Under the pieces are notes generated by a model, which saw only the letters and a program-made list of their open reading frames with translations, made no database searches and was not told the DNA's origin. This document shows positions 43,317 through 56,964 of a DNA stretch of 64,000 bases, piece by piece (position 1 is the stretch's first letter; the number at the start of each line of letters is the position of its first letter). This DNA is from Halioglobus sp. (GTDB lineage: Bacteria > Pseudomonadota > Gammaproteobacteria > Pseudomonadales > Halieaceae), in NCBI GenBank assembly GCA_029246385.1, contig JAQWNG010000037.1, positions 1-64,000 on the forward strand, read 5' to 3'. The position numbers were made by a program, and so were the translations under genes.

Positions 43317-43557
43317 AAGGCACCTAAGCTGAATGCATTCAACCCAGATTGGCCTTAGTTTGCGGGAATCCATGGGCGGCTGCAAGCAATGTCGTAAAAT
43401 TCGAATGACGTCGGAACTAAACATCGCCGCTGAGTACTCATGTGTGGATCGAAAAATCCGCGGACTGCGAAGATTTTAACGTGATAATGATTAATCTATG
43501 AGGGCATCCACAATAGATCGAGGCTATACTCACATCACTGGGATGAAGGAACGGATT

Positions 43558-44187
43558 ATGCTAACCGAGCCAACGGTATACGTTATCGACGACGAGCCCG
43601 CAATCTGCGAGATCCTCAACGATATACTTGAAGCAGCCAATATCAAAGTGAAAACCTACACGTCTCCCCGCGAATTCATGCTGTCCTACAGCCCAGAGAA
43701 TCCGGGATGTCTGCTGCTTGATATCGGCATGCCGGAACTCAATGGCCTAGAATTGATGGAGGCTCTCATTGCGAAGGGAAACAGAACTCCCGTAATCTTT
43801 CTCACCGGAAGCGCAACCATTGCAAATGCAGTCGACATGCTAAAGGCCGGCGCTATCGACTTCATAGAAAAGCCGCCGCAAGTAGATTTACTGTTAAATT
43901 GTGTCAGGAAGGCCCTGGAGTTGGACTCCCAGCGCCGCTGCGAGCAACAGGAGTTCTCAAGCATCAATGAACGTCTCAAGCTGTTAACCGCGCGCGAACG
44001 TGAGGTTCTGACCTGGATCACGGAAGGCAAGTCAAACAAAAAGATCGCTTCGATTCTCGATATCAGCAGCAGGACTGTTGAGATTCATCGTGCAAATATT
44101 CTCAATAAGATGCAGACGCACTCCGTCGCCGAATTAGTAAAAATGGACCTGACCGCAAGGGAATATTTGAATACACGTGGCCACTAA
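43558..44187 (+). CDS. FixJ/NarL-type response regulator (receiver plus LuxR-type HTH)
   Basis: 209 residues from the ATG at 43558 (MLTEPTVYVIDDEP) with AAGGA 7 nt upstream; the frame extends back to 43498. Receiver domain: acidic Asp11/Asp12, phospho-acceptor Asp55 in CLLLDIGMP, Thr in FLTGSA, and EKPPQ Lys. After a linker comes the helix-turn-helix LTAREREVLTWI, KKIASILDISSRTVEIHRANI. It is the only DNA-binding protein of the cluster and the likely endpoint of its kinases. The 237 bp upstream to ffs show no other gene. Confidence 0.92.
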   Translation: MLTEPTVYVIDDEPAICEILNDILEAANIKVKTYTSPREFMLSYSPENPGCLLLDIGMPELNGLELMEALIAKGNRTPVIFLTGSATIANAVDMLKAGAIDFIEKPPQVDLLLNCVRKALELDSQRRCEQQEFSSINERLKLLTAREREVLTWITEGKSNKKIASILDISSRTVEIHRANILNKMQTHSVAELVKMDLTAREYLNTRGH

Positions 44188-44209: not shown

Positions 44210-45436
44210 CTAGGCTTGCGACTTCAACTGGCGTGCAAGCCAGAATCTGAAATCATCGGCAGACATCGGCTTTGCAACAAAATAACCCTGTACGGCCTGA
44301 CACCCTAGTTCAGCAAGAAGCTGTTTTGTCGCAAAATCCTCAACCCCCTCTGCGACCACGCGCATGTTAAATTGCTCACCGAGCAGGATACAAGCCTTGA
44401 CGATGGCGAGGGCTTCCGTATCGACGACCATCTTACTTACAAAACTTTGATCAATCTTTAGCTCCGAAAACGGCATTCGATATAATTGCAACAGCGAGGA
44501 ATAGCCGGTACCAAAATCATCAATAGACAAACGTACGCCCTTCAGACGCAGTCGCGTTAGAACATCCAGCGACGTAGTGAGTTCTCCCATCAATTCACTC
44601 TCTGTCACCTCAAGTGTGATTGTTGCAGTATCAAGTTCATTATCAGCTAACAGCCTTGAAATAACCTCGGGGAGAATTAAACTGGTAATATCGCTAGCCG
44701 ATACGTTGATTGATAAATTTATCCGCAGGCCCTCTTTCTTCCACTCACGTTGCTGATTAGCAACTTTTTTGAGCACGATAGCTGTCAAATCTGGCATCCA
44801 GCCCTGTGTCTCAACTAGTTCTATAAATCGATTTGGATAAATAAGCCCCTGTATCGGATGCTGCCATCGCACCAAACACTCGGCAGAGTACTTTGTCGAG
44901 TCAGTTAACGCGAACTCCTCTTTAGCCTGATAATGCAAAACAAATTGATCTTGGTCTAAGGCCTCGCGCAATTCCTCTACACCCACTATATTACTAGGTG
45001 TGGTCTTTCCCCCCCACTTCTTGCTGCGTCTCAATGTCTGAGGTTCAAGCAAACCGCGAAGAAGCCTAACCGACAGGGGCTTTACAAGCGTCCCACGAAC
45101 AACTAACTCGTGCGCAACGGCGAGATTCTCGGCACCGCTAAGCACCGCGGAGTCTTGCCCGCTCATGAGAATCAGTTCGGGCGCATTTTCCATCTTGGCC
45201 AGGTAGCGAATAACTTCGATACCATCGATTCCGGGCATCTGTAAATCTAATATCAGAATATTGTCGCCCTCAAAGCAATGAACTTCATTAATGAAATTAT
45301 CTGCTTGGGAAAAACAATGTGCCTCGAGACCGGCAAGCGCGACGACGTCGCTAAGTATCTTCAAAATATCGGGTTCATCGTCTATCAAATAAACCTGTGT
45401 CGAAGAAAATGGCGGCAAAACTAGCTCGCTACTCAT
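44210..45436 (-). CDS. Response regulator with EAL c-di-GMP phosphodiesterase output
   Basis: 408 residues from the ATG at 45436 (MSSELVLPP); a GTG at 45469 is possible. Receiver first: VYLIDDEPD, phospho-acceptor Asp64 in ILDLQMPG, GTLVKP. Then an EAL domain from about residue 150: the signature reads AECLVRW (usual EALLRW), and metal/catalytic segments NVSASD, EVTESELM, DDFGTGYSS, LKIDQSFV, VVAEGVED and QGYFVAKPM are intact, so c-di-GMP breakdown is likely. Resembles RocR/PvrR-type regulators. Tail to tail with the FixJ-type gene, 22 bp apart. Confidence 0.92.
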   Translation of the reverse strand: MSSELVLPPFSSTQVYLIDDEPDILKILSDVVALAGLEAHCFSQADNFINEVHCFEGDNILILDLQMPGIDGIEVIRYLAKMENAPELILMSGQDSAVLSGAENLAVAHELVVRGTLVKPLSVRLLRGLLEPQTLRRSKKWGGKTTPSNIVGVEELREALDQDQFVLHYQAKEEFALTDSTKYSAECLVRWQHPIQGLIYPNRFIELVETQGWMPDLTAIVLKKVANQQREWKKEGLRINLSINVSASDITSLILPEVISRLLADNELDTATITLEVTESELMGELTTSLDVLTRLRLKGVRLSIDDFGTGYSSLLQLYRMPFSELKIDQSFVSKMVVDTEALAIVKACILLGEQFNMRVVAEGVEDFATKQLLAELGCQAVQGYFVAKPMSADDFRFWLARQLKSQA

Positions 45437-45646
45437 GTTATCTAGGATCCCCATGTGCAGGGTAGACACACATAAAAACTATCATTAACACTCCTCGCTA
45501 TCGCACGGACTGACATATACAAAAGAATAAATCAGTTTCATGAATAAATATAGCAGATGATGGCGACTGCGAGTAACGCAGCCACCACCATAAAATTGCC
45601 AACAAGGTCTAGGCATATCGTTTCCCGAGCAATTAAAGGGCGCGCT

Positions 45647-48286
45647 TTATTTAACCCCATCCAGTAATATTCGTACGCGCTTAGATAGCTCCACACCTCT
45701 ATACGGCTTCCTCAGCACCTCAAATTCTGATTCAGTTACTGAAATTGGGCCATCAGCTTGGACAGAAAAGCCCGTTGTAAGTAGTATTTTGAGCTGCGGA
45801 TACTGAAGGGAAATGATGGAAGCCAGTTCAAGACCACTCATTCCTCCTGGCATTACAACGTCAGAAAACACTAAATCAATGTTCATATTCTCTTCAAGAA
45901 TCTGCAGAGCATCTGGTCCGGTATTGGCACAAATGACTCTGTATCCCAGACCCTCTAAAATAGCTTGTGCAATGACAGCCAGCTCTACTTCATCGTCGAC
46001 AATAAGAATCGTTTCCACGCCCGAAAGCATCTTCGACGCAATGGGAGTCGGAGGTTCCGGCAGCTCAGCTAAAGATCTAGAGCGAGGGAGATAAATCTTA
46101 AATGTGGTGCCTTGCCCTATTTCTGAAAACACGAATATATATCCCTTCGTACGCTTCACAAACCCATAGACCATTGCCAACCCTAGGCCGGTGCCTTCGG
46201 CTTTTCCTTTAGTCGTAAAAAATGGATCAAAAATTCTTTCGCGAAGTTCACTGCTGATACCACCTCCAGTGTCACTAATCGACAATTCTAAGTATTCGCC
46301 CGGTACCATTTCAACCTCGTCACCAGCGTAAGCGCTTCCTATTATTGATTCTTGTATCGCTATTTTTAGGCTGCCGCCCTTGGGCATAGCATCACGCGCA
46401 TTGAGGCTTAAGTTAATTAGGGCGTCTTCCAGATCATCAGGATTCAACTCCACACTAAACAGACCCAAAGGCAGAGATGTCTCAAGAAATATACTAGCAG
46501 TAATAGACTTCCGTATTAACTCCTCAAACCCACTGATGACTTTTCCAAGATCCAAAGGGCTATAATCTTCCTCTGAACGGCGTGAAAAATCGAGTAAACT
46601 TCGCGTCAGAATCGACCCCCTAAGCGCGGCAGTCTGCGCGACATCAAGCTGATGGCGTAATACTTTGTTAAGATTACCCTGAGCGTTCATTAGATCGAGA
46701 TTACCAATGATAATACCCAAAAGATTATTAAAATCGTGTGCCAATCCGCCCGCCAACTCACCGACAGACTCCATCTTCTGCGATCGACGCAGCATCGACT
46801 CGGCGGTTTTGACCGCAGTAATATCAGTGGCAATAATAATGTAACTCTCCAGCTCGCCTGCGGCATTAAGCGAGGGCACAACGGTAGCCGATACCCAGTA
46901 AATATCGCCATTTTTTTTCACATTCTCCATATCGCCCGACCAGGTTTTACCCTGCAGTGTTGCCAACCGTATCTCATGAAGTGATTCCAACGGATAAGTA
47001 TCACTTATAACCAGTCGAGTATTTTCCCCAACTAGCTCGGCACGCGAGTAGCCGCTGCAGACGCAAAATTTATCATTAGCATATAGGATCTCACCTCGAG
47101 GGGTTGCTATGCTGACTATAGCGTGCTCATCAAGAGCATACTTTTGAAATGATAATTCAGTATTAGCAAGATTGGCCTGATCTAATCTTTCCTGAGATAA
47201 CCTCTCGGCCTCTTTTAATGCTGCTTGGGCAAGTTCGCGTTTCGTATCATCACGGCAAATGCCTATCATACGTACCACAACACCATCAGCATCGCGCACC
47301 AGTTTTGCATGCGTGATCACATATTTCACTAGGCTAGACGTTAACAGCAGGCGAAAAGAGCAAAACAAGTCTTCATTATGCTCTACAACACTAGCGTAAC
47401 TATTAACCACTTGGTCGTAATCATCTGGGTGAATTCGATCAATCCATACAGTTGAGATATGTCCCGCATGCTTGTGCTCAATACCAAAGATGTCAGACAT
47501 CCTTTTATCACCCAAAAGATTATTTCCTAACAAATCATAGTCCCACACACCGAGTCCTGCTGCGGAGGTCGCTAGTAGTAACCGCTGCTCTTTATTGCGC
47601 AACACTATCTGCGACTCTTGCAAAGAAGAATTTTGAATTTGTATGTGATCCAACATGGCATTGAATGCTTTGGTTACACTCCCCACTTCATCTCCTGTAC
47701 GCATACTCATAGCGCGCAAGCTATAATCACTGTCGCTAACAATCTTTTCGGCAACGCCACTTAAATGCCTAAAAGGACTGGTTGCTCGATGAACCATGAG
47801 GTACACGCCAAGCCCCGCAGCAAGCACTGACATCGACGCCAGTATAAGAGCAAACCAAATTTGTCGAAATAGCTTAGAATTCAGACCGGAAACATCTAGG
47901 TGTATCACGAGCGTCCCTAGCTCCTGTCCCTTCCAGAGCACCGGGGTCATGAATTGTTCGATCTCTACCGCCCCAAGCTTCGAGGTACGCCGATACTCAG
48001 CTAAAGGTCTTTCGTCCAGAGCATTTAATTGTGCAGAAATAACAGCCGGATTGACACGCAGAGCCTCTAAAACTTTAGACGCAGCGGCACGGTCGCCAAA
48101 CATTGCAGGTGCCGCAATACTAAATGCGGTAACGTCAGCCAATATTTGGATACGCTCTTTGGACTCCTCGATAGCATCGAAGTAATGAATATATTCGTCG
48201 ACTCCAATGAAAGCAAGAACCACCAGCATCGTAATTGCCATAGAAAACAGACTAATTTTATGAGACAACTTTAAATTAATCTTCAT
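45647..48286 (-). CDS. Hybrid histidine kinase with YfiN-like periplasmic sensor (CHASE8), HAMP, two PAS and a receiver
   Basis: 879 residues. Helix about 12-30; periplasmic segment 33-125 resembling the YfiN/DgcN sensor ([29 protein letters not shown], read in parts); second helix about 140-163; HAMP about 165-220; PAS at 240-350 and 372-490 (the second with [21 protein letters not shown]); H-box [10 protein letters not shown] with His517; ATPase N-box [10 protein letters not shown] and G-boxes [20 protein letters not shown]; receiver with phospho-acceptor Asp809 (FSDVVMPGG). All catalytic parts are intact. Here a sensor normally fused to a diguanylate cyclase is fused to a kinase. A periplasmic YfiR-like protein is encoded at 51296. 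Confidence 0.9.
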
Positions 48287-48586
48287 ATGATCTTGTTCTG
48301 CAATACTTTGGCGAAGCTGTCATCTCAGTGTCCTGCAAGCGATATCGCACCCCAGAGTAATAGCACCGATGCTTGAAACCGTTTAAAATATTTTTTGATG
48401 CAGTGAAGAAACGGCGTCAACGCTGCACTAGAATAGCTTTGCTCATCGTGCGCAGGCACACGCGGTCTTTACCCATGACTAAAGTTTTAACGCCGAGCTT
48501 TCCAGCAAAAAATTCTTATAAGAGTATTTGATACATTTATGTAATAACAAACCAGGCCTCTACTGCCTGAACGTAACATATCGATC
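48287..48586. other. 300-bp gap between two kinase genes
   Basis: No gene seen. It should hold the promoter of the hybrid kinase to the left; no clear -35/-10 pair was found. A weak hairpin CAGGC-7 nt-GCCTG at 48553-48569 followed by GTTTGTTATT on the minus strand may end the 48587 gene's transcript. AT-rich compared with the housekeeping flanks. Confidence 0.4.
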
Positions 48587-49894
48587 TTAAGCTACAGTTC
48601 TTGGTAAATAGAGATGAGCGGCGGTACCAACATCGGAATCTGAGCACAGCCAAACATATCCTTTTGAACGCCGACAAAATCCATAGACATGGGACAACCC
48701 CATTCCTTTGATTCCGGTCTTAACTTTAGTGGAAAAAAAAGGGTCGAATACAAATGGTTTACTATCTGCCGAAATACCATGTCCGCTATCAGTCACTGAT
48801 AGCTCTACGTATTCACCATGATCCACACCGGAGCTGACATCGCAACAGTCTTGATCTAAAACTACATTAGTTGTTTCTATTACCAGTTGACCGCCAGCAG
48901 GCATGGCTTCACTCGCATTACGAATCAGCTCCAGCACCGTCCTCTGGAAATCGTCGGTTTCAATATTGACAAGCCAAACTCGCTCACTAAGGTTTAAGGT
49001 GAGCGTCACGGACGCGTTTAGTTCAGCTAGGATAAGAGGCTTTATCCCTTCAAGCACCTGATTAACATTTGAAATCATTTGTTTTTGGGGTAACGGCCTA
49101 TATAAGCGGCTCAGTTGATTTGTGATGGCGCAGGCCCGTTCAGCTGCGCTCTGAATGGGGCTCAGTCGCCCCTGAATCTTTAAATCCTCTATGTCCTCAT
49201 ACTCCAGCAACTCAAGATTGCCTAAAACAATAGCCAGTATGTTATTGAAGTCGTGAGCTACGATCGCAGAAAGCTTTATTATTCCGTCCATACGGCCTGA
49301 ACAAGAAATCAAATCACTTATGATATTTGCTGGAACCCTAATTATGTCGCGCGAGAGAGGCTCAGTTTCTCCATGATCAATTTCTGTTGCAATCTGTACT
49401 TCGAGATTGCGACCTAAGTCTATGTTTTTCTCCATGTGCGCTATGACTAGGCGCTGCATTTGCAGCGCGAGAAACACGTCCACTTTGGCAACAATCAGAT
49501 GCGGATCGGCAGCGCGTGAAACGTAGTCTACAGGCGCCGATTTATAGCGACTAAAATTCAACTGATCTAATTCAGAAACAGGATTAACAAAAATAATCGG
49601 AACATCTCGAGTCAGTTCACTCAGGACCATCAATTTTGCAGCTTTTAGTGCTTCTTCAGAATCCATTTCTGCATAGTGCAGGATTACAGAAAACGTATTT
49701 TCAACGCATACATCCATCGCCTCTAAGGCGCTTTTGACTATGACCAATTCGGCATTTATCTCACGCAGCACATTTTCAATGAGGCTGTCTTTTAGTTCAT
49801 CATCCATGATCACTAAAATATTTGGCGCAGGTAAACGCCGCAGCACAAATTCCGCATCTCGCGAAAGACTGACCCACGCAAGTAGATCACTCAT
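48587..49894 (-). CDS. Histidine kinase with degenerate N-terminal receiver-like domain
   Basis: 435 residues from the ATG at 49894 (MSDLLAWV), with GGA about 7 nt upstream; a TTG four codons earlier is possible. The first about 140 residues fold like a receiver (ILVIMDDELKDSLIENVL, then VPIIFVNP, APVDYVSRAAD) but the phospho-acceptor site reads ILHYAEM, without Asp. Then a linker, H-box VAHDFNNILAIVLGN (His214) and an HPK4-type ATPase (ELIRNASEAMPAGG, DSGHGI, GMGLSHVYGF). No membrane helix or C-terminal receiver. It probably gives its phosphate to the FixJ-type or EAL regulator. Divergent from the barrel-yfiR pair. Confidence 0.88.
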   Translation of the reverse strand: MSDLLAWVSLSRDAEFVLRRLPAPNILVIMDDELKDSLIENVLREINAELVIVKSALEAMDVCVENTFSVILHYAEMDSEEALKAAKLMVLSELTRDVPIIFVNPVSELDQLNFSRYKSAPVDYVSRAADPHLIVAKVDVFLALQMQRLVIAHMEKNIDLGRNLEVQIATEIDHGETEPLSRDIIRVPANIISDLISCSGRMDGIIKLSAIVAHDFNNILAIVLGNLELLEYEDIEDLKIQGRLSPIQSAAERACAITNQLSRLYRPLPQKQMISNVNQVLEGIKPLILAELNASVTLTLNLSERVWLVNIETDDFQRTVLELIRNASEAMPAGGQLVIETTNVVLDQDCCDVSSGVDHGEYVELSVTDSGHGISADSKPFVFDPFFSTKVKTGIKGMGLSHVYGFCRRSKGYVWLCSDSDVGTAAHLYLPRTVA

Positions 49895-50014
49895 GGTCTT
49901 TTCCAAAACGCCATATTTTCAACATTTTAATAACGCCCTCTTCCACGTAACACCTCGCTTCTTTGAAAAACTTTGAAGCGCCCATCTAGATCACTCTTAT
50001 TCACTTTCACAATT

Positions 50015-50065
50015 GTAAGTACAAGTACTTAATCCTTAAATACGTGGTAGTACGTAAAACTACGT
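50015..50065. promoter_or_regulatory. Candidate operator: three TACGT motifs at 10-bp steps plus AAGTAC repeats
   Basis: TACGT occurs at 50041, 50051 and 50061, exactly 10 bp apart and so on one helix face. Just left, AAGTAC and AAGTACTT are joined (50017-50030). It lies in the 315-bp region between the 49894 kinase start and the 50210 barrel start; nothing else but the barrel's ribosome site is seen there. From memory, FixJ-type regulators bind TACGTAG/GTACGTAG-like sites. It could serve either divergent gene. Confidence 0.55.
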
Positions 50066-50209
50066 GACCAAATCGATGCAAAGATAGTGTATATTTTTAT
50101 TGTGATTGTAAATTAGGCTTGCAAAGCACCAATGCATCATTGGCAAATAATTCCTAATGTCTAATCATTCCCGGACCAGCAACACTGACTATCCATTGGG
50201 AGCAAAGAT

Positions 50210-51289
50210 ATGCTAGCACGCAGAATTGCTCCCTTAGGCTGGACTTTCACCGCAGTGAGTATCATGTACAGCGGCGACAGCCTATCCCAAAGCACGCCAT
50301 CCGAATTTGCCGAAATGAGCTTGGTCGATCTGCTTGATCAGTCAATTGATGAGTCCGAACTATCTCATCGCGATCAATCGTCGTGGAGTTTTGTATTTCA
50401 GCGCCAGTCGGCAGAGTTCAAAGATTTCCTTGATGGCGACAACCGGGTTAGCGAAGACGATGTGCTCTGGAGCGGACCCAATAGTGGTGAAGCTAGGACA
50501 GACAAAAATTTTCCGGTCGTTCCAGGTAAGATAACACAAACCGCTTACTTAATCTCAATAGGGTATGCTTTTGACGATCGCTGGCGCGGGCATATCACCG
50601 TTCCATATCTCGAGCAGAGCACAGATCACATCAGTATCGTCCCCAATTACAGCACCTTTAAACTCGACAGTTCCGGAGTTGGGGACACTATGGTCTCCGC
50701 CAGCTATAGGCTGTCTGACACGAACCGAGGGCATTGGTGGTTGACCGTTGGACTGAGTATTCCGACAGGTTCGATCGATGCGGAAGGAGATACACCAAGA
50801 GCTCCCGGAGACCAGCGGCTTCCCTACACAATGCAGCTAGGCTCAGGGACATACGATTTCCCAGTAGAAATTAGTTATCATAACAGGGGTCAACATGATA
50901 TCAGCGTTGCGCTCGCGGCACTGATCCGAACCGGAACCAACGACAACGACTACCGGCTAGGCAACAGCTACTCGCTGACCAGTCGTTATGATTTTCATTT
51001 TTCCGAAATCTTACAACCCTATATCAGTCTAAACATTGACTATAGTGACTCCATTCACGGTGCCGACACCTCACTAATGACTGCGCCACCCTACCCCTAT
51101 CCAGCACCCATTACTAACCCGGATCTGTTCGGTGGCATAAAAATTGGTGCCCGGGCCGGCATTTCATGGCAAGTTTCTGACCACTATCGACTGGCGATTG
51201 AAGTAGGGAAACCTATTTATCAAAACCTAAATGGCCCCCAGACAGAGGAAGACTGGCGCTCCTCTCTACAAATTTCCCGGTCTTTTTAG
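50210..51289 (+). CDS. Outer-membrane beta-barrel protein, transporter-like
   Basis: 359 residues; ATG with GGGAG 7 nt upstream. N-terminal hydrophobic signal peptide ending near SLSQS, then a short SLVDLLDQSIDES segment like the N-terminus of some TonB-linked receptors, then alternating beta strands to a C-terminal Phe (ISRSF), the usual BAM recognition end. Strand pairs such as LISIGYAFDDRWRGHITVPY resemble the phenol-degradation MetA-type barrel family. Ligand unknown. Stop is 6 bp before the yfiR-like gene, so they form one operon. Confidence 0.82.
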   Translation: MLARRIAPLGWTFTAVSIMYSGDSLSQSTPSEFAEMSLVDLLDQSIDESELSHRDQSSWSFVFQRQSAEFKDFLDGDNRVSEDDVLWSGPNSGEARTDKNFPVVPGKITQTAYLISIGYAFDDRWRGHITVPYLEQSTDHISIVPNYSTFKLDSSGVGDTMVSASYRLSDTNRGHWWLTVGLSIPTGSIDAEGDTPRAPGDQRLPYTMQLGSGTYDFPVEISYHNRGQHDISVALAALIRTGTNDNDYRLGNSYSLTSRYDFHFSEILQPYISLNIDYSDSIHGADTSLMTAPPYPYPAPITNPDLFGGIKIGARAGISWQVSDHYRLAIEVGKPIYQNLNGPQTEEDWRSSLQISRSF

Positions 51290-51295
51290 CGCTTA

Positions 51296-51835
51296 ATGTC
51301 ATGGGTTCCTCGAATTAGCGTCTCCGCACTAGCGATACTGATTTTTGCGCAGCTCATATCAATTGAGGCTGCATATTCAGACTCAGATGAAGTTTTGCTC
51401 AGCAAGGAGAACAAATTAAAGGCCGCCTATTTTTTTAATTTTATAAAATTTATTGACTGGCCACATCATTCGTCGAACTCCCCTCTCACGCCGCTTCATA
51501 TATGCCTGCAAGACGGCACGTCATTTGAAAATTTTTTTCGTGATTTAGTAGAAAAAAAGTCAACTGCCAACAGTGAACCCAAGTTAAAAATCCAACGCTT
51601 ATCAGAAGCGGATTACTGCGATTACACCTATTTGCACAAAACATTTCTCGGAGAAAGTTTAAACATGGAAGGCAATGTTATAGTGCTCGAATCAAAACAG
51701 ATTTCACAAAAGGGAGCTTCGATTGTTTTTTTTATAACCGATCGCAAGGTGCGCTTTGAAATAGACCTTAACAACATCCATAAAAATCAGGTAGCGGTCA
51801 GTTCAGAGTTGTTAAAGCTTGCAAAAATCAAGTAG
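51296..51835 (+). CDS. YfiR/DUF4154 periplasmic regulator
   Basis: 179 residues. Signal peptide (SALAILIFAQLISIEAAYS), then the DUF4154 signature KLKAAYFFNFIKFIDWP (residues 40-56) and VAVSSELLKLAKIK at the end. Two cysteines only (Cys70, Cys108), which match the position of one of the two disulfides I recall in P. aeruginosa YfiR. YfiR holds back the diguanylate cyclase YfiN through its periplasmic sensor; here the matching sensor domain sits on a histidine kinase (45647-48286). Coding sequence is notably AT-rich. Confidence 0.88.
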   Translation: MSWVPRISVSALAILIFAQLISIEAAYSDSDEVLLSKENKLKAAYFFNFIKFIDWPHHSSNSPLTPLHICLQDGTSFENFFRDLVEKKSTANSEPKLKIQRLSEADYCDYTYLHKTFLGESLNMEGNVIVLESKQISQKGASIVFFITDRKVRFEIDLNNIHKNQVAVSSELLKLAKIK

Positions 51836-51922: not shown

Positions 51923-53920
51923 TCACAATCGACTAATAGCGTTAATTAAATCTATCTTACGATAAGGCTTACTAATCAACTCACCGGGCAATTCTTCATC
52001 TTCAGCCAATCGGTCAGCATATCCAGACGTCATTAGCACTTTTAAGTGCGCTTGAAGCAGCAAGGCTTTTTTTGCCAACTCTACTCCATCCATACCTCCA
52101 GGCATAACGATATCAGTGAACAAAATAGCATAGCGTTTATGCGCAAGATGTTCGAGTGCTTCAGCAGCGCTGTGCGCTATTGTGACCTTACACCCAAGCG
52201 ATGTTAGCCATATTGCAGATAGCTCGCACAGCGCAACCTCGTCGTCTACAACCAAAACACTTGATATATCAGTTTTTCTCTGAGCCGAAGTGGCAATGCC
52301 GGTCACTGTATCTGCAGCGTGTTTCGTACGCACTGATTCAGAGCGCCTACTGCGTATAAAAATACTCATGGCCGCCTCGGCTAAAGTCTGAAGCCCTTCT
52401 ACTTGCCAATTGATAAGCGTATTCGGCGCATGATCGACAACACAAAGTGCACCCACTGTATGTCCACTCGCGTCAACTATGGGAGCCTCTGCATAAAAGT
52501 ACGCAGGCGGCTCAGCAATCAACAATGGGCTCTGCGAGAATCGCGGATCGAGTCGGATATCAGGAACCACTAACACCTGCTCAGTATTTTTATTGGTCGG
52601 GAAAAATGATCTTGCGTGCTGCAGCACCGAACTATCATATGATTCTGCACCCACACTAGCCTTTAACAACTGCCGGTTTTCATCAGCCATAAACATTAAG
52701 GCCGCTGGTACCCTCGAGATTCTCGCTGCATCCGATGCTAGGGAGTCAAGGCCAGCGTCCCAGACGTCAGCGACAGATAACTGATACGGAGACAATCCCA
52801 CATGGCGCGCCACCTCTGGCCCTGACGCATCGCTGTTGACTTTATCCAATGGCAGATATAAACGCACAGAGGTGCCCGCTCCCTCAGTGCTTTTAACGTG
52901 GACCACCCCACCGGCTTCCTCGACATAACGAGAGACCATAGATAGCCCTAGACCTGTGCCCTCACGCTCATCTTTTGTAGTGAAAAAGGGCTTGAAGATC
53001 TGCTCTAATAGCGCTTCATCCATTCCAACGCCAGTGTCAGAGACTTCTATCAGTGCGTGCAAGCCAGAAACAAGTTTATTATCGAAACCGCTTTGAACAT
53101 TGACCGCCTTCGTCCGCAACGTAAGGAATCGATTCCCGACAACACTCCGCATCGCGTCACGCGCATTAATGACAAGATTAAGCATAATATTATCAAGACC
53201 AGAGCCTCTCATATTACAGATTAGCTTGGGGACAGATAGCTGCGAGCGAACGATAACATTTGAACCAGCCGCGCTTTTAATCATCGGCATTATGTCATCG
53301 ATGAGTGTATTCACATCACAAGCTTGGACGTCATTTTTTTCCCGGCGAGCTACGGCAAGCAGCCCTCTACTCACTTCTACGCCAGCCAATGCAGCGGCTA
53401 AAGCTGAGTCTATTTGAGACTGTATTTTATCAAACCCCGGTGGCAGTGACTCCTGCACCTCGTCAAGGTTTCCAACCACGATGCCTAATATGTTATTAAA
53501 GTCGTGCGCTAACCCTCCCGTAAGCTGACCTACTGCAGCAAGCTTTTGTGATTCTGTCGCTTCACGCTGATGCTGCCGTGACTGCATGGCGACCTCGCCC
53601 TTCGCAACACCGGCTTCGGTGATCTTAATAAGAGATTTACGCGACAATCTCGCTATCTGAAGTACAAATGACGCCCCGAGCAGAAATACAATACCCGTAA
53701 GAAGCATAAAACCGTTAGTATAGTTGGCCGTTATTAGAAAAATCTGTATCAGATAGCAGACTAAAAATAGACAACTAAACAAGTTGGGATATTTCCAATT
53801 TCTACGGGATAACGCCTTGGTCGCAGGGGGCAAAGAATGACCTTGGACCACAAAGCTAGCGAGCAGAAGTACTATGCCCAAACACAATATTACGATTGTT
53901 ATGAGTTCACTAGCAGACAA
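51923..53920 (-). CDS. Hybrid histidine kinase, order kinase-GAF-receiver
   Basis: 665 residues. About three N-terminal membrane helices (5-27, 47-65, 70-90), a short linker, H-box [16 protein letters not shown] (His139), ATPase (NLVINARDAM, DTGVGMDE, GTGLGLSMVSRY), then a GAF domain (about 370-515: SRVPAALMFMADENRQLLKAS, FYAEAPIVDASGHTVGALCVVD), then a receiver with phospho-acceptor Asp603 (FTDIVMPGG) and the end ISKPYRKIDL. A GAF after rather than before the kinase core is unusual. It diverges from the MASE1 kinase with 155 bp between. Confidence 0.9.
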   Translation of the reverse strand: MSASELITIVILCLGIVLLLASFVVQGHSLPPATKALSRRNWKYPNLFSCLFLVCYLIQIFLITANYTNGFMLLTGIVFLLGASFVLQIARLSRKSLIKITEAGVAKGEVAMQSRQHQREATESQKLAAVGQLTGGLAHDFNNILGIVVGNLDEVQESLPPGFDKIQSQIDSALAAALAGVEVSRGLLAVARREKNDVQACDVNTLIDDIMPMIKSAAGSNVIVRSQLSVPKLICNMRGSGLDNIMLNLVINARDAMRSVVGNRFLTLRTKAVNVQSGFDNKLVSGLHALIEVSDTGVGMDEALLEQIFKPFFTTKDEREGTGLGLSMVSRYVEEAGGVVHVKSTEGAGTSVRLYLPLDKVNSDASGPEVARHVGLSPYQLSVADVWDAGLDSLASDAARISRVPAALMFMADENRQLLKASVGAESYDSSVLQHARSFFPTNKNTEQVLVVPDIRLDPRFSQSPLLIAEPPAYFYAEAPIVDASGHTVGALCVVDHAPNTLINWQVEGLQTLAEAAMSIFIRSRRSESVRTKHAADTVTGIATSAQRKTDISSVLVVDDEVALCELSAIWLTSLGCKVTIAHSAAEALEHLAHKRYAILFTDIVMPGGMDGVELAKKALLLQAHLKVLMTSGYADRLAEDEELPGELISKPYRKIDLINAISRL

Positions 53921-54075: not shown

Positions 54076-56964
54076 ATGGTTAAGCATACTCAGGGGCTAG
54101 AGAATACAATACTTAGCACCCTAAGCATTAGTCTCCTATACTTTTCGGCAGCTCAAGTTGGACTATTATTGGAGTTAGCTCCCCATCAAATTATTCTTTA
54201 CTGGCCAGCGTCAGGCGTTGCTCTAGCAGCAGCACTCATTTTTGACAAGCGCGCGTTACTTGGTCTCATGCTGGGCGCGTTTGCGACAGCAGGCGCCCTT
54301 GTATTTCAACAGCCGTTCAAGCCTCGACCAGACGTGCTATTCGCCCTCTTCGTCGCCGCAGCCATGATGATAATGCAGCCGCTCATTGCATTAACGTTAC
54401 TGAAGCGACTCGTATCTTCAATGCCATTTTGGATGCACATTAGGACCCTCTATCAAGGATTAGCTGTATTACTGCTGGCCTCAGTGATTCCCGCTGGCGC
54501 TGGCGCTGGCGCGCTCTTCATCACGGGCATAGTAGATGGCAATAATATAATCGACATATGGATGTTTTGGACCATGGCTGGACTCTTAGGCATGATCACT
54601 GTTGCGCCAATTTTGTATCAAATAGCGCGACGTTTTAACGTAGCGCCCACACCCTCTTATCAAGCACCACTCTATACGATGGTAACGTTCAGCCTTGCTT
54701 GCTTAGCAGTCGTTGTTATATTTATAACAGTGTCTAACGCAGAGCATAACGCTTCGGATCGACCACTTGATCAGAATACAAAAATCTTTGCCGAACGATT
54801 TCAAAACTCAACTGACCAAAAAAATAGCAGCGTGATAACCCCGCACGATAACAACTTAAATAAATTAGACACCAATTGGAAGAAGGGACGCACAACCACG
54901 GAAACAAAAAGCATGGCAACAAATCAAATTGTGGCTGCTATAACTCAATCTGTAAATCTGTCAAAGCCACTCTTTGCCTCTATAATCACCCTAGTTATTG
55001 GTCTACTTTTTACGCACATTGTTTATGCGCATGAAAAACACCAAAAAGAAAGTCTGCGCACGCGCGCATTTCACGATGCTATTGTTGTTAGCGCACTACA
55101 GCCTTTTGTTCACCTTGACGAAAATGGCTTCGTCCTCGAATGGAACAAGGCTGCTCACGAAGTATTTGGCTGGACGCTGGAGCAGATCCAGTACAAAAAA
55201 CTCGCAGAAACCCTCGTTCCAGCTCGATTTAGAGAGGCACACGAAAATGGCATGGAACGTTTTCGCAAAACTGGTGAAGGGCTTGTCATAGGCAACATTG
55301 TAGAACTTGAAGGCTCGTGCGCTGATGGCACAGAATTGCCGATTGAACTACTGATTAACGCCATACAAACTGAAGACGGCTGGCATTTTTTTGCTTTCAT
55401 TCATGACATTAGCGAACGAAAGCGAGGTGAAGACGCTCTACAAGCTGCGCATAAAAAATATACAGGACTTTTCGAGGCAAGCCCTGACGCGATAGTCACC
55501 TATAATCAAGAAGGCAATATCGAGGACGTCAATATTGCTGCAATAGCCCTGTTTGGTTGGTCGCGAGAAGAAATGCTGAGCATGAAATACGAGGCAATTA
55601 TCGCCGACCGCTCAAAAACCTATTTCTTTTCTAAATATAATAACCCAGATTACGTTAATCCTTTGGAATTGTCTCAGGCAAACCAGTCAGTCTTTGCAAA
55701 CCGGCGAGACGGATCAGAGTTCCCATTTGAAGTCGTCATTAATGCACAGGAAACTGAGACGGGGACTAAACATATAAGCGTAATTCGTGACATTACAGAG
55801 CAGGTGGAAGCAGCTAAGATAAAGGAATCGAATCAAAAACTTGAAACACTTGGCGAACTAACAGGAGTACTCGCGCATGAGTTTAACAACCTACTTACAA
55901 TTATAATTGGCAACCTTGACTTGGTTATTGCGCGTCAGTCAGAAACGCCGCTGAATGAAACCATACAAAATAGATTGAAGGCAGCGCAAAATGCAGCAAC
56001 GCGCGGAACCGATGTGGTGAGGTCACTACTTGCGGCGGGTACCGATCAGCCAATATCTCAAGATTATTTCAATGTGGCGCCAATGATAGCAGATATGTTG
56101 CCCAAGCTTCAGGTTGCGGCTGGAGAAAATATTACACTGTCTGTAGAGACCAAACATGAGTCATTGCCAGTCAAGTCAAACCGCAAATGGCTCTCAGAAG
56201 CTGTTCAAAACTTGGTCATAAATGCACGCGAAGCGATTGTAGGTAAAGGCCAAATTGAAATATGTTTAAACCGCGTTCAAAGTTCAAACATAGTCGATAA
56301 AACATTAGCGTTATCAGACGGCGATTACATAGTTGTTAGCGTCTCTGATACAGGATCAGGGATGAGTGATAGCGATATGCAAAAATCAATTGATCCATTT
56401 TTCACAACAAAAAAAGCCAGCGGCCACAAAGGCATTGGCTTATCAGTCGTGTCGCGCATGGCGAAACAGTTAGGCGGGGCAGCCACTGTAGCCTCGAGAC
56501 CTAAAAAGGGAACAGTGGTGCAAGTTTTCTTACCCGCGACAGATTCTAGCAACATACTGAGTGATTCCTCGGATCTAAATTCAGATGCCGCTGGCAAAAA
56601 TGTGTTGGTGGTAGATGATCAGACCGAGATTTTAACGTTAACGGTCTCGTGGCTGGAAAAATCAGGTTATCGTGTAAAAAGCGCTGACAATGCAGATAGC
56701 GCTTTAGGTATTATTGACTCTAGCGTTCCGCCTATCGACCTTTTAATTACTGATATGGTGATGCCGTCTATAGATGGGGATTCGCTGACGCGGTTTGCGC
56801 GCAGGTGTAATCCAAGTATTAAAATACTTTATATGACCGGCTTTTTGGCCCCTTCACGGGGAAATTCCGATGACACCGCAGACATCCCTATACTTGAGAA
56901 ACCATTTCGCAAGAACAAATTCTTAGCCACGGTGCGTTCAATATTTGATTCTGTCGACATCTAA
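54076..56964 (+). CDS. MASE1-PAS-PAS hybrid histidine kinase
   Basis: 962 residues. N-terminal MASE1 membrane domain (about 10-215: YWPASGVALAAALIFD, GAFATAGAL), a polar Asn/Thr-rich stretch (about 222-290) where MASE1 proteins often carry a CHASE1 domain, a further helix (293-313), PAS at about 330-440 and 450-570 (FVLEWNKAAHEVFGW, IEDVNIAAIALFGW), H-box VLAHEFNNLL (His601), ATPase (NLVINAREAI, DTGSGMSD, GIGLSVVSRM) and a receiver with Asp893 (ITDMVMP). All catalytic parts intact. ATG start at 54076, no strong ribosome site. Last gene of the cluster. Confidence 0.92.
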   Translation: MVKHTQGLENTILSTLSISLLYFSAAQVGLLLELAPHQIILYWPASGVALAAALIFDKRALLGLMLGAFATAGALVFQQPFKPRPDVLFALFVAAAMMIMQPLIALTLLKRLVSSMPFWMHIRTLYQGLAVLLLASVIPAGAGAGALFITGIVDGNNIIDIWMFWTMAGLLGMITVAPILYQIARRFNVAPTPSYQAPLYTMVTFSLACLAVVVIFITVSNAEHNASDRPLDQNTKIFAERFQNSTDQKNSSVITPHDNNLNKLDTNWKKGRTTTETKSMATNQIVAAITQSVNLSKPLFASIITLVIGLLFTHIVYAHEKHQKESLRTRAFHDAIVVSALQPFVHLDENGFVLEWNKAAHEVFGWTLEQIQYKKLAETLVPARFREAHENGMERFRKTGEGLVIGNIVELEGSCADGTELPIELLINAIQTEDGWHFFAFIHDISERKRGEDALQAAHKKYTGLFEASPDAIVTYNQEGNIEDVNIAAIALFGWSREEMLSMKYEAIIADRSKTYFFSKYNNPDYVNPLELSQANQSVFANRRDGSEFPFEVVINAQETETGTKHISVIRDITEQVEAAKIKESNQKLETLGELTGVLAHEFNNLLTIIIGNLDLVIARQSETPLNETIQNRLKAAQNAATRGTDVVRSLLAAGTDQPISQDYFNVAPMIADMLPKLQVAAGENITLSVETKHESLPVKSNRKWLSEAVQNLVINAREAIVGKGQIEICLNRVQSSNIVDKTLALSDGDYIVVSVSDTGSGMSDSDMQKSIDPFFTTKKASGHKGIGLSVVSRMAKQLGGAATVASRPKKGTVVQVFLPATDSSNILSDSSDLNSDAAGKNVLVVDDQTEILTLTVSWLEKSGYRVKSADNADSALGIIDSSVPPIDLLITDMVMPSIDGDSLTRFARRCNPSIKILYMTGFLAPSRGNSDDTADIPILEKPFRKNKFLATVRSIFDSVDI

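Follow-up and report, generated by a model that had tools for sequence, protein, structure and literature searches.

Our analysis concerns a 64,000-nucleotide stretch of Halioglobus sp. DNA (contig JAQWNG010000037.1, positions 1 to 64,000; hereafter the window), where open reading frame positions and Pfam matches place three genes in one cluster: a hybrid histidine kinase with a CHASE8 sensor, a YfiR-like protein and an outer-membrane barrel. By analogy with the YfiBNR system, we propose that the three proteins form a functional unit whose output would be a phosphorelay, a reading to which we give a probability of about 0.6. In P. aeruginosa, YfiR represses YfiN and the outer-membrane protein YfiB relieves the repression. 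The three genes and the sensor domain are placed as follows.

45647..48286, minus strand: hybrid histidine kinase, 879 amino acids, with the order transmembrane segment, CHASE8, transmembrane segment, HAMP, PAS, PAS, HisKA, HATPase_c, REC (Pfam and the sensor model)
47945..48160, minus strand: CHASE8 domain, residues 43-114 of the kinase (Pfam), with APAMFGD at residues 59-65
50210..51289, plus strand: outer-membrane barrel, 359 amino acids, proposed YfiB substitute (Pfam PF13557, alignment A3, 41 relatives and tail statistics)
51296..51835, plus strand: YfiR-like periplasmic protein (DUF4154), 179 amino acids (Pfam, profile search and predicted structure)

A first-pass annotation of this DNA had described an 879-residue hybrid kinase with a YfiN-like (CHASE8) periplasmic sensor, and a DUF4154 gene about 3 kb away that is paired with a barrel. 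Both observations were borne out. The profile comparison it had proposed for the periplasmic part of the kinase gives a match to PF17152 over residues 43-114, at 41.2 bits where the cut-off is 27. Between the kinase frame and the DUF4154 domain, which is on the opposite strand, there are 3,094 bases, and the end of the barrel gene is separated from the start of the YfiR-like gene by 6 bases. The kinase output in Pfam is HisKA-HATPase-REC and not the GGDEF domain of YfiBNR. The genome is 3.3 Mb and 99.99% complete, and in the whole of it DUF4154 (Pfam search, E up to 0.001) and CHASE8 (E up to 1) are each found in a single gene. The idea that this YfiR serves some other CHASE8 cyclase in the genome was rejected, because the genome-wide search found no second CHASE8.

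The three genes tend to be present or absent jointly, which supports treating YfiR, barrel and CHASE8 kinase as a probable unit on comparative grounds. We compared 18 genomes of the genus and 140 of the family. Within the genus, DUF4154 is present in 5 genomes, CHASE8 in 4 and neither in 13; the sole discord is G365, whose YfiR gene stands at the edge of a contig of 3,656 bases. Orthologs of the barrel (at least 74% identity) and of the kinase (at least 69%) fall in the same 4 genomes, the window's own, G350, G359 and G366, with the kinases of the last three at 69-77%. Within the trio, conservation is lowest for the YfiR-like protein (54-61% in these three genomes), whose gene has a G+C content of 0.391 against 0.505 for the window. 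A further genome, G352, keeps the window order of recR, ybaB, dnaX, a FixJ-type regulator, a REC-EAL protein, a 439-residue kinase, a GAF kinase and a MASE1 kinase. The trio genes of the window flank the 439-residue kinase on both sides, yet all three are missing from the G352 locus. In G350 the trio is found at a different site, without the window neighbours, and Pfam finds no response regulator among its seven flanking genes. The association extends to a different lineage at locus L311, which holds a REC-EAL protein (72%), CHASE8 kinase (57%), short kinase (54%), barrel (70%) and YfiR (46%) together, with other genes beyond.

Across the family, DUF4154 occurs in 47 genomes and CHASE8 in 43, with both in 40, DUF4154 only in 7, CHASE8 only in 3 and neither in 90. 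Six of the seven DUF4154-only genomes have the domain solely in frames of 1,019-1,064 amino acids, four of which are kinase fusions while G269 and G273 were judged by frame length, and the seventh is the contig-end case of G365. Among the CHASE8-only genomes, the matches of G282 and G290 do not reach the Pfam cut-off and that of G341 is at a contig start. CHASE8 is thus present in 40 of the 41 family genomes with a free-standing YfiR, and because of this, together with the joint gain or loss in the genus across an intervening gene, we consider the YfiR-CHASE8 pairing to be above chance.

The barrel gives a second view of the same association. It matches Phenol_MetA_deg (PF13557) at 23.5 bits against a cut-off of 22, with OMP_b-brl below its cut-off, and has a conserved N-terminal tail, QSTPSEFAEMSL, at residues 27-38. 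One scan of the genome contigs with six barrels gave 41 loci, of which 38 have YfiR, 37 have CHASE8 and 36 have the full trio, counts in which YfiR-linked relatives are favoured since the scan was seeded from YfiR-linked barrels. With the window and L261 added these become 40, 39 and 38 of 43. The output at the 37 CHASE8-bearing loci is a kinase in 29 and GGDEF-EAL in 8. Two kinase labels were set by hand, that of L312, where a truncated frame matches the window kinase (49%) as far as residue 461, short of the kinase core, and that of L341, because a kinase frame adjoins. CHASE8 is missing from L315 and L345, which are at contig ends, from L350, which is a far relative, and from L344, where none was seen in a full stretch. 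Barrel, YfiR and a kinase stand together in the marine relative HTCC2148 (L321). In the barrel tree the divergent gene arrangement of the window forms a 7-row group (100/100) and the kinase and cyclase labels require 3 changes.

If barrel and YfiR made up a separate envelope system, the nearby CHASE8 kinase would be a coincidence. The opposite strands and the intervening gene would suit such an arrangement, as would the lack of significant co-divergence of the window pair and the loose position of its CHASE8 in the tree, which are described below. We nevertheless regard it as very improbable, given that the genes are jointly present or absent across genus and family and that 36 of the 41 barrel loci have the full trio.

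The YfiR assignment is also supported by homology and modeling. The protein matches DUF4154 at 87.6 bits against a Pfam cut-off of 24.9. Searches of the single window proteins against the PDB with phmmer returned only chance matches, and YfiR was found afterwards by profile search, in which a profile from 39 YfiR relatives retrieves the P. aeruginosa YfiR chains with a best E of 1e-15. The predicted structure (pLDDT 86.9) has YfiR entries as all of its 15 best Foldseek matches, with TM scores of 0.53-0.57 by query length, and supports a YfiR fold for the DUF4154 protein. The kinase sensor was modeled with a pLDDT of 89.9 and resembles PAS/PDC-like periplasmic domains (WalK, a LapD ortholog and CitA), though with weak scores and 3 matches below E 0.001. 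Used as a profile against the PDB, the sensor alignment gave weak HAMP and WalK matches only.

Several contact residues are kept on both sides of the proposed interface. The parts of PMC3375315 and PMC4887326 that deal with the contact name YfiR residues F151, E163, I169 and Q187 and a central F162, and an AAVVF stretch on YfiN. Compared by eye, the P. aeruginosa YfiR residues F162, E163, L166, I169, V176 and L181 have their equivalents in the window YfiR. In the window sensor, residues 59-65 read APAMFGD where YfiN has AAVVF, so that the phenylalanine is kept and the exact stretch is not; F63 is invariant and D65 is present in at least 90% of 37 sequences. A pattern search finds a stretch with F-x-D at this place for 51 of the 64 kinase partners, 44 of the 45 partners with GGDEF or GGDEF-EAL and all nine chemoreceptors. 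The window YfiR has two cysteines (70 and 108), which by eye correspond to the Cys71/Cys110 pair, while Cys145/Cys152 are absent. Four cysteines are described as strictly conserved in complete Yfi systems in the part of PMC3375315 that compares them, and the two of the window YfiR set it apart from a complete YfiBNR.

Taking YfiBNR as a guide, we infer that YfiR would bind the PAS-like CHASE8 sensor and keep the kinase locked in a single state. Taking the role of the lipoprotein YfiB, the barrel would pull YfiR off the kinase upon an outer-membrane or ligand cue, perhaps capturing it with its periplasmic N-terminal tail. The freed kinase would then pass its signal by phosphorelay to response regulators encoded in the cluster, the REC-EAL protein, the FixJ-type regulator or both. 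Coupling of the YfiR type to the kinase is the well supported part of this scheme.

Co-divergence of YfiR and CHASE8 can be seen over 123 pairs (rho 0.345), a value that 6 of 500 swaps of partners within genomes attain. Several observations weigh against our reading. The window's own row has no significant co-divergence (rho 0.07), and its CHASE8 falls outside the CHASE8s of its YfiR clade, although the AU test does not reject such a grouping (p 0.45). Of the named contact residues, Q187 is a lysine in the window and F151 could not be placed by eye. Distant barrel homologs (33-39%) are found in the YfiR-less genus members G354, G357, G362 and G364, and G350 carries a second, equally distant copy (33-39%); the homologs in YfiR-less genomes indicate that barrels of this family are not linked exclusively to YfiR. 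Additionally, repression as the direction of control is carried over by analogy from P. aeruginosa.

In 244 genomes picked evenly from the order, DUF4154 is found in 85 genomes at 139 places and, counting CHASE8 places among the matches listed, CHASE8 is found in 119; at least 87 of the 139 DUF4154 places have a CHASE8 among the matches listed within 1 kb. We classified 138 places including the window, leaving out one contig-edge fragment, with labels from profiles built in this analysis and a motif rule for chemoreceptors. The partners are CHASE8-histidine kinase at 49 places, CHASE8-GGDEF-EAL at 33, CHASE8-GGDEF at 10, CHASE8-chemoreceptor at 9, CHASE8-histidine kinase-GGDEF-EAL at 3, DUF4154-kinase fusions at 13, CHASE8 alone in short frames at 2 and none found at 19. 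The kinase is therefore the commonest partner class (49/138, window included), and a kinase pairing unique to the window was rejected on this count. Pfam confirmed a chemoreceptor output in the samples L068 and L117, a TonB receptor beside YfiR in L067, L087 and L134 and TpsB in L077. Switching between kinase and cyclase needs at least 13 changes on the YfiR tree, where well-supported branches alone force 5 kinase-label changes, and 10 changes on the CHASE8 tree. The partner counts and the repeated switching suggest that control of kinases by proteins of the YfiR type would be common in the order and no exception. On the YfiR tree, the window YfiR itself belongs to an 11-row group (SH-aLRT 91, not starred) in which 5 partners are kinases, 5 are GGDEF-EAL and 1 is cut by a contig end, so that related barrel-YfiR pairs use different outputs.

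Other arrangements were noticed as well. Fusions of DUF4154 to hybrid kinases make up 15 frames (L160, L167, L185, L186, L188, L190, L191, L192, L193, L194, L195, L197, L279, L280); they lie on one side of a starred YfiR-tree branch, their domain is without cysteines and they have no CHASE8 call, and that of L188 also carries Hpt (Pfam). YfiR adjoins CHASE8 chemoreceptors (MCP) at nine places (L068, L075, L117, L127, L130, L131, L132, L151, L152). At nine others it stands beside a TpsB-like (FhaC/ShlB) transporter (L077, L080, L082, L086, L090, L091, L092, L095, L099; Pfam-checked in L077 only); the partner is CHASE8-GGDEF at seven of these and a CHASE8 kinase at one, and the last has no CHASE8 in reach. 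No CHASE8 neighbour was found for five YfiR-like genes that make up one clade (L157, L163, L164, L165, L166), and in L165 the gene next to YfiR encodes the carbamoyl-phosphate synthase small chain. Very long open reading frames of 1908, 2139 and 1354 amino acids lie directly upstream of YfiR in L076, L083 and L120, with TpsB-like frames further upstream of the long frame in L076 and L120.

The cluster contains several further genes.

43498..44187, plus strand: FixJ-type REC-LuxR response regulator, possible transcriptional output (Pfam, NCBIfam and neighbourhood comparison)
44210..45469, minus strand: REC-EAL response regulator, 419 amino acids, possible output, separable from the trio (Pfam)
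48587..49906, minus strand: kinase of 439 amino acids whose N-terminal receiver is weak, located between the barrel-YfiR pair and the CHASE8 kinase (Pfam)
51923..53920, minus strand: HATPase-GAF-REC hybrid kinase, a neighbour kept in G352 (Pfam)
54076..56964, plus strand: MASE1-PAS-PAS-histidine kinase-REC kinase, a neighbour kept in G352 (Pfam)

The N-terminal receiver of the 439-residue kinase scores 15.2 bits against a cut-off of 30.2, and in its HYAEMD stretch the phospho-acceptor aspartate seems, by eye, to be absent.

The first-pass annotation had gone further and proposed that YfiR restrains the kinase, that the kinase phosphorylates the REC-EAL protein and that release of YfiR lowers cyclic di-GMP (c-di-GMP), the opposite of YfiBNR. 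The REC-EAL gene comes directly after the CHASE8 kinase in the window, in G366 and in G359 (82 amino acids, cut by the contig end), and its presence beside the trio in the separate lineage of L311, at 72%, indicates that this neighbour association is old. The protein has REC and EAL domains in Pfam and reaches 250.8 against a cut-off of 580 for NF052596 (PvrR-type phosphodiesterase). It has ECLVR in place of EAL, and what we take to be the EAL-type catalytic motif patterns are each matched once. However, the trio of G350 has no close REC-EAL protein (best relative 37% among those with E of 1e-60 or better), and G352 retains the REC-EAL gene and other kinases with all three trio genes missing, so neither side needs the other and an obligate place for REC-EAL in the trio was rejected. 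Three other kinases also share the cluster. In the order draw, 12 of the 49 kinase partners, the window included, have a REC-GGDEF/EAL protein within 6 kb and 37 have none within that distance; the other 11 of the 12 regulators also bear GGDEF, which makes the sign at those places unpredictable. The sign reversal through REC-EAL is possible, and the full chain from YfiR to lowered c-di-GMP seems to us rather doubtful. Of the rewiring proposed in that annotation, the CHASE8 sensor, the trio as a unit and the kept contact residues stand, while the reversal through EAL is not established in view of G350 and G352.

The trio might instead feed the multi-kinase network of the cluster, with transcription through the FixJ-type regulator as the main output and c-di-GMP secondary, which we hold to be a tentative suggestion of similar standing. 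The FixJ-type gene adjoins REC-EAL in the window, G352, G366 and G365. Against this, it is not beside the trio of G350 and is not seen in L311, L312 and L315, whose contigs end at or before the place.

A broader and more speculative idea is that YfiR is a general messenger linking swappable outer-membrane proteins to swappable CHASE8 outputs, with docking through a tail, the kinase-barrel form of the window as one case and c-di-GMP possibly lowered. The outer-membrane partners would be the 350-residue barrel, a TonB-dependent receptor, a TpsB transporter or an OmpA lipoprotein, and the inner outputs could be a cyclase, GGDEF-EAL, a kinase or a chemoreceptor; all of this we consider unlikely as a joint reading. 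An LSLEEL-like N-terminal tail shared by barrels and receptors would be the YfiR site, a part of it that is equally uncertain. The barrel tail (50288-50347) resembles the LSLEEL tail of TonB receptors, and a broad pattern of this kind occurs in 38 of 40 barrels and in 29 of 294 other frames of 320-420 amino acids. Among TonB receptors the tail is not specific to YfiR neighbours, being found in 33 of 39 beside YfiR and 17 of 24 elsewhere.

Signalling from the outer membrane to inner-membrane regulators is understood in few systems. If our reading of barrel, YfiR and kinase as one unit is true, a conserved trio with swappable outputs would offer a simple genetic test system in marine bacteria and might account for what is sensed by YfiR-CHASE8 pairs that lack YfiB. 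A kinase output by itself is no news. The sections of Malone 2012 (PMC3375315) on divergent Yfi systems report that the place of GGDEF is often taken by GGDEF-EAL pairs, HPT domains or kinases, name a hybrid kinase in Thauera, add an MCP output in the discussion and propose a modular YfiR-YfiN core; they describe these systems as almost all without yfiB. The link between YfiR and a kinase is already known from these sections and from the NCBIfam families NF053591 and NF053592. What looks new is the conserved barrel as a third partner in place of YfiB. A search of titles and abstract openings, with subscription journals mostly outside its coverage, found no YfiR with a barrel or TonB receptor partner.

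Compared with YfiBNR, the window shares a periplasmic protein of the YfiR fold, an inner-membrane CHASE8/PAS-like sensor with HAMP, several contact residues and an outer-membrane protein encoded beside YfiR. It differs in having a kinase and not GGDEF, a YfiR with two cysteines and not four, and two divergent transcription units in place of one operon. The place of the OmpA/Pal lipoprotein YfiB in the operon is occupied by the barrel; OmpA is absent among the Pfam matches of 8 cluster proteins, and no genome-wide search for YfiB was made. The divergent Yfi systems of PMC3375315 include YfiR with a YfiN-type sensor fused to a kinase, as in the Thauera hybrid kinase, and the portions of its text that cover them do not mention a barrel as third partner. 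The best-matching NCBIfam family for the window YfiR is NF053591 (TOL_0243 family YfiR-like), and NF053592 (sensor kinase, YfiR-like protein-associated) matches kinase residues 8-216, but the window proteins are under both cut-offs (75.7 against 125 and 89.3 against 194). As a YfiR-CHASE8 core with a kinase output, a YfiR-like gene near a CHASE8 kinase, the arrangement is present in the window and conserved in G350, G359 and G366. The nearest relatives with another output are these.

L313, L314, L316, L318, L320, L322, L323, L348: barrel-YfiR-CHASE8-GGDEF-EAL loci (HTCC2143, Haliea alexandrii, Paraglaciecola, Alteromonas, Colwellia)

They have the barrel family, YfiR and CHASE8 in common with the window, but use a c-di-GMP enzyme as output and have all three genes on a single strand, with the barrel first, then YfiR and then CHASE8.

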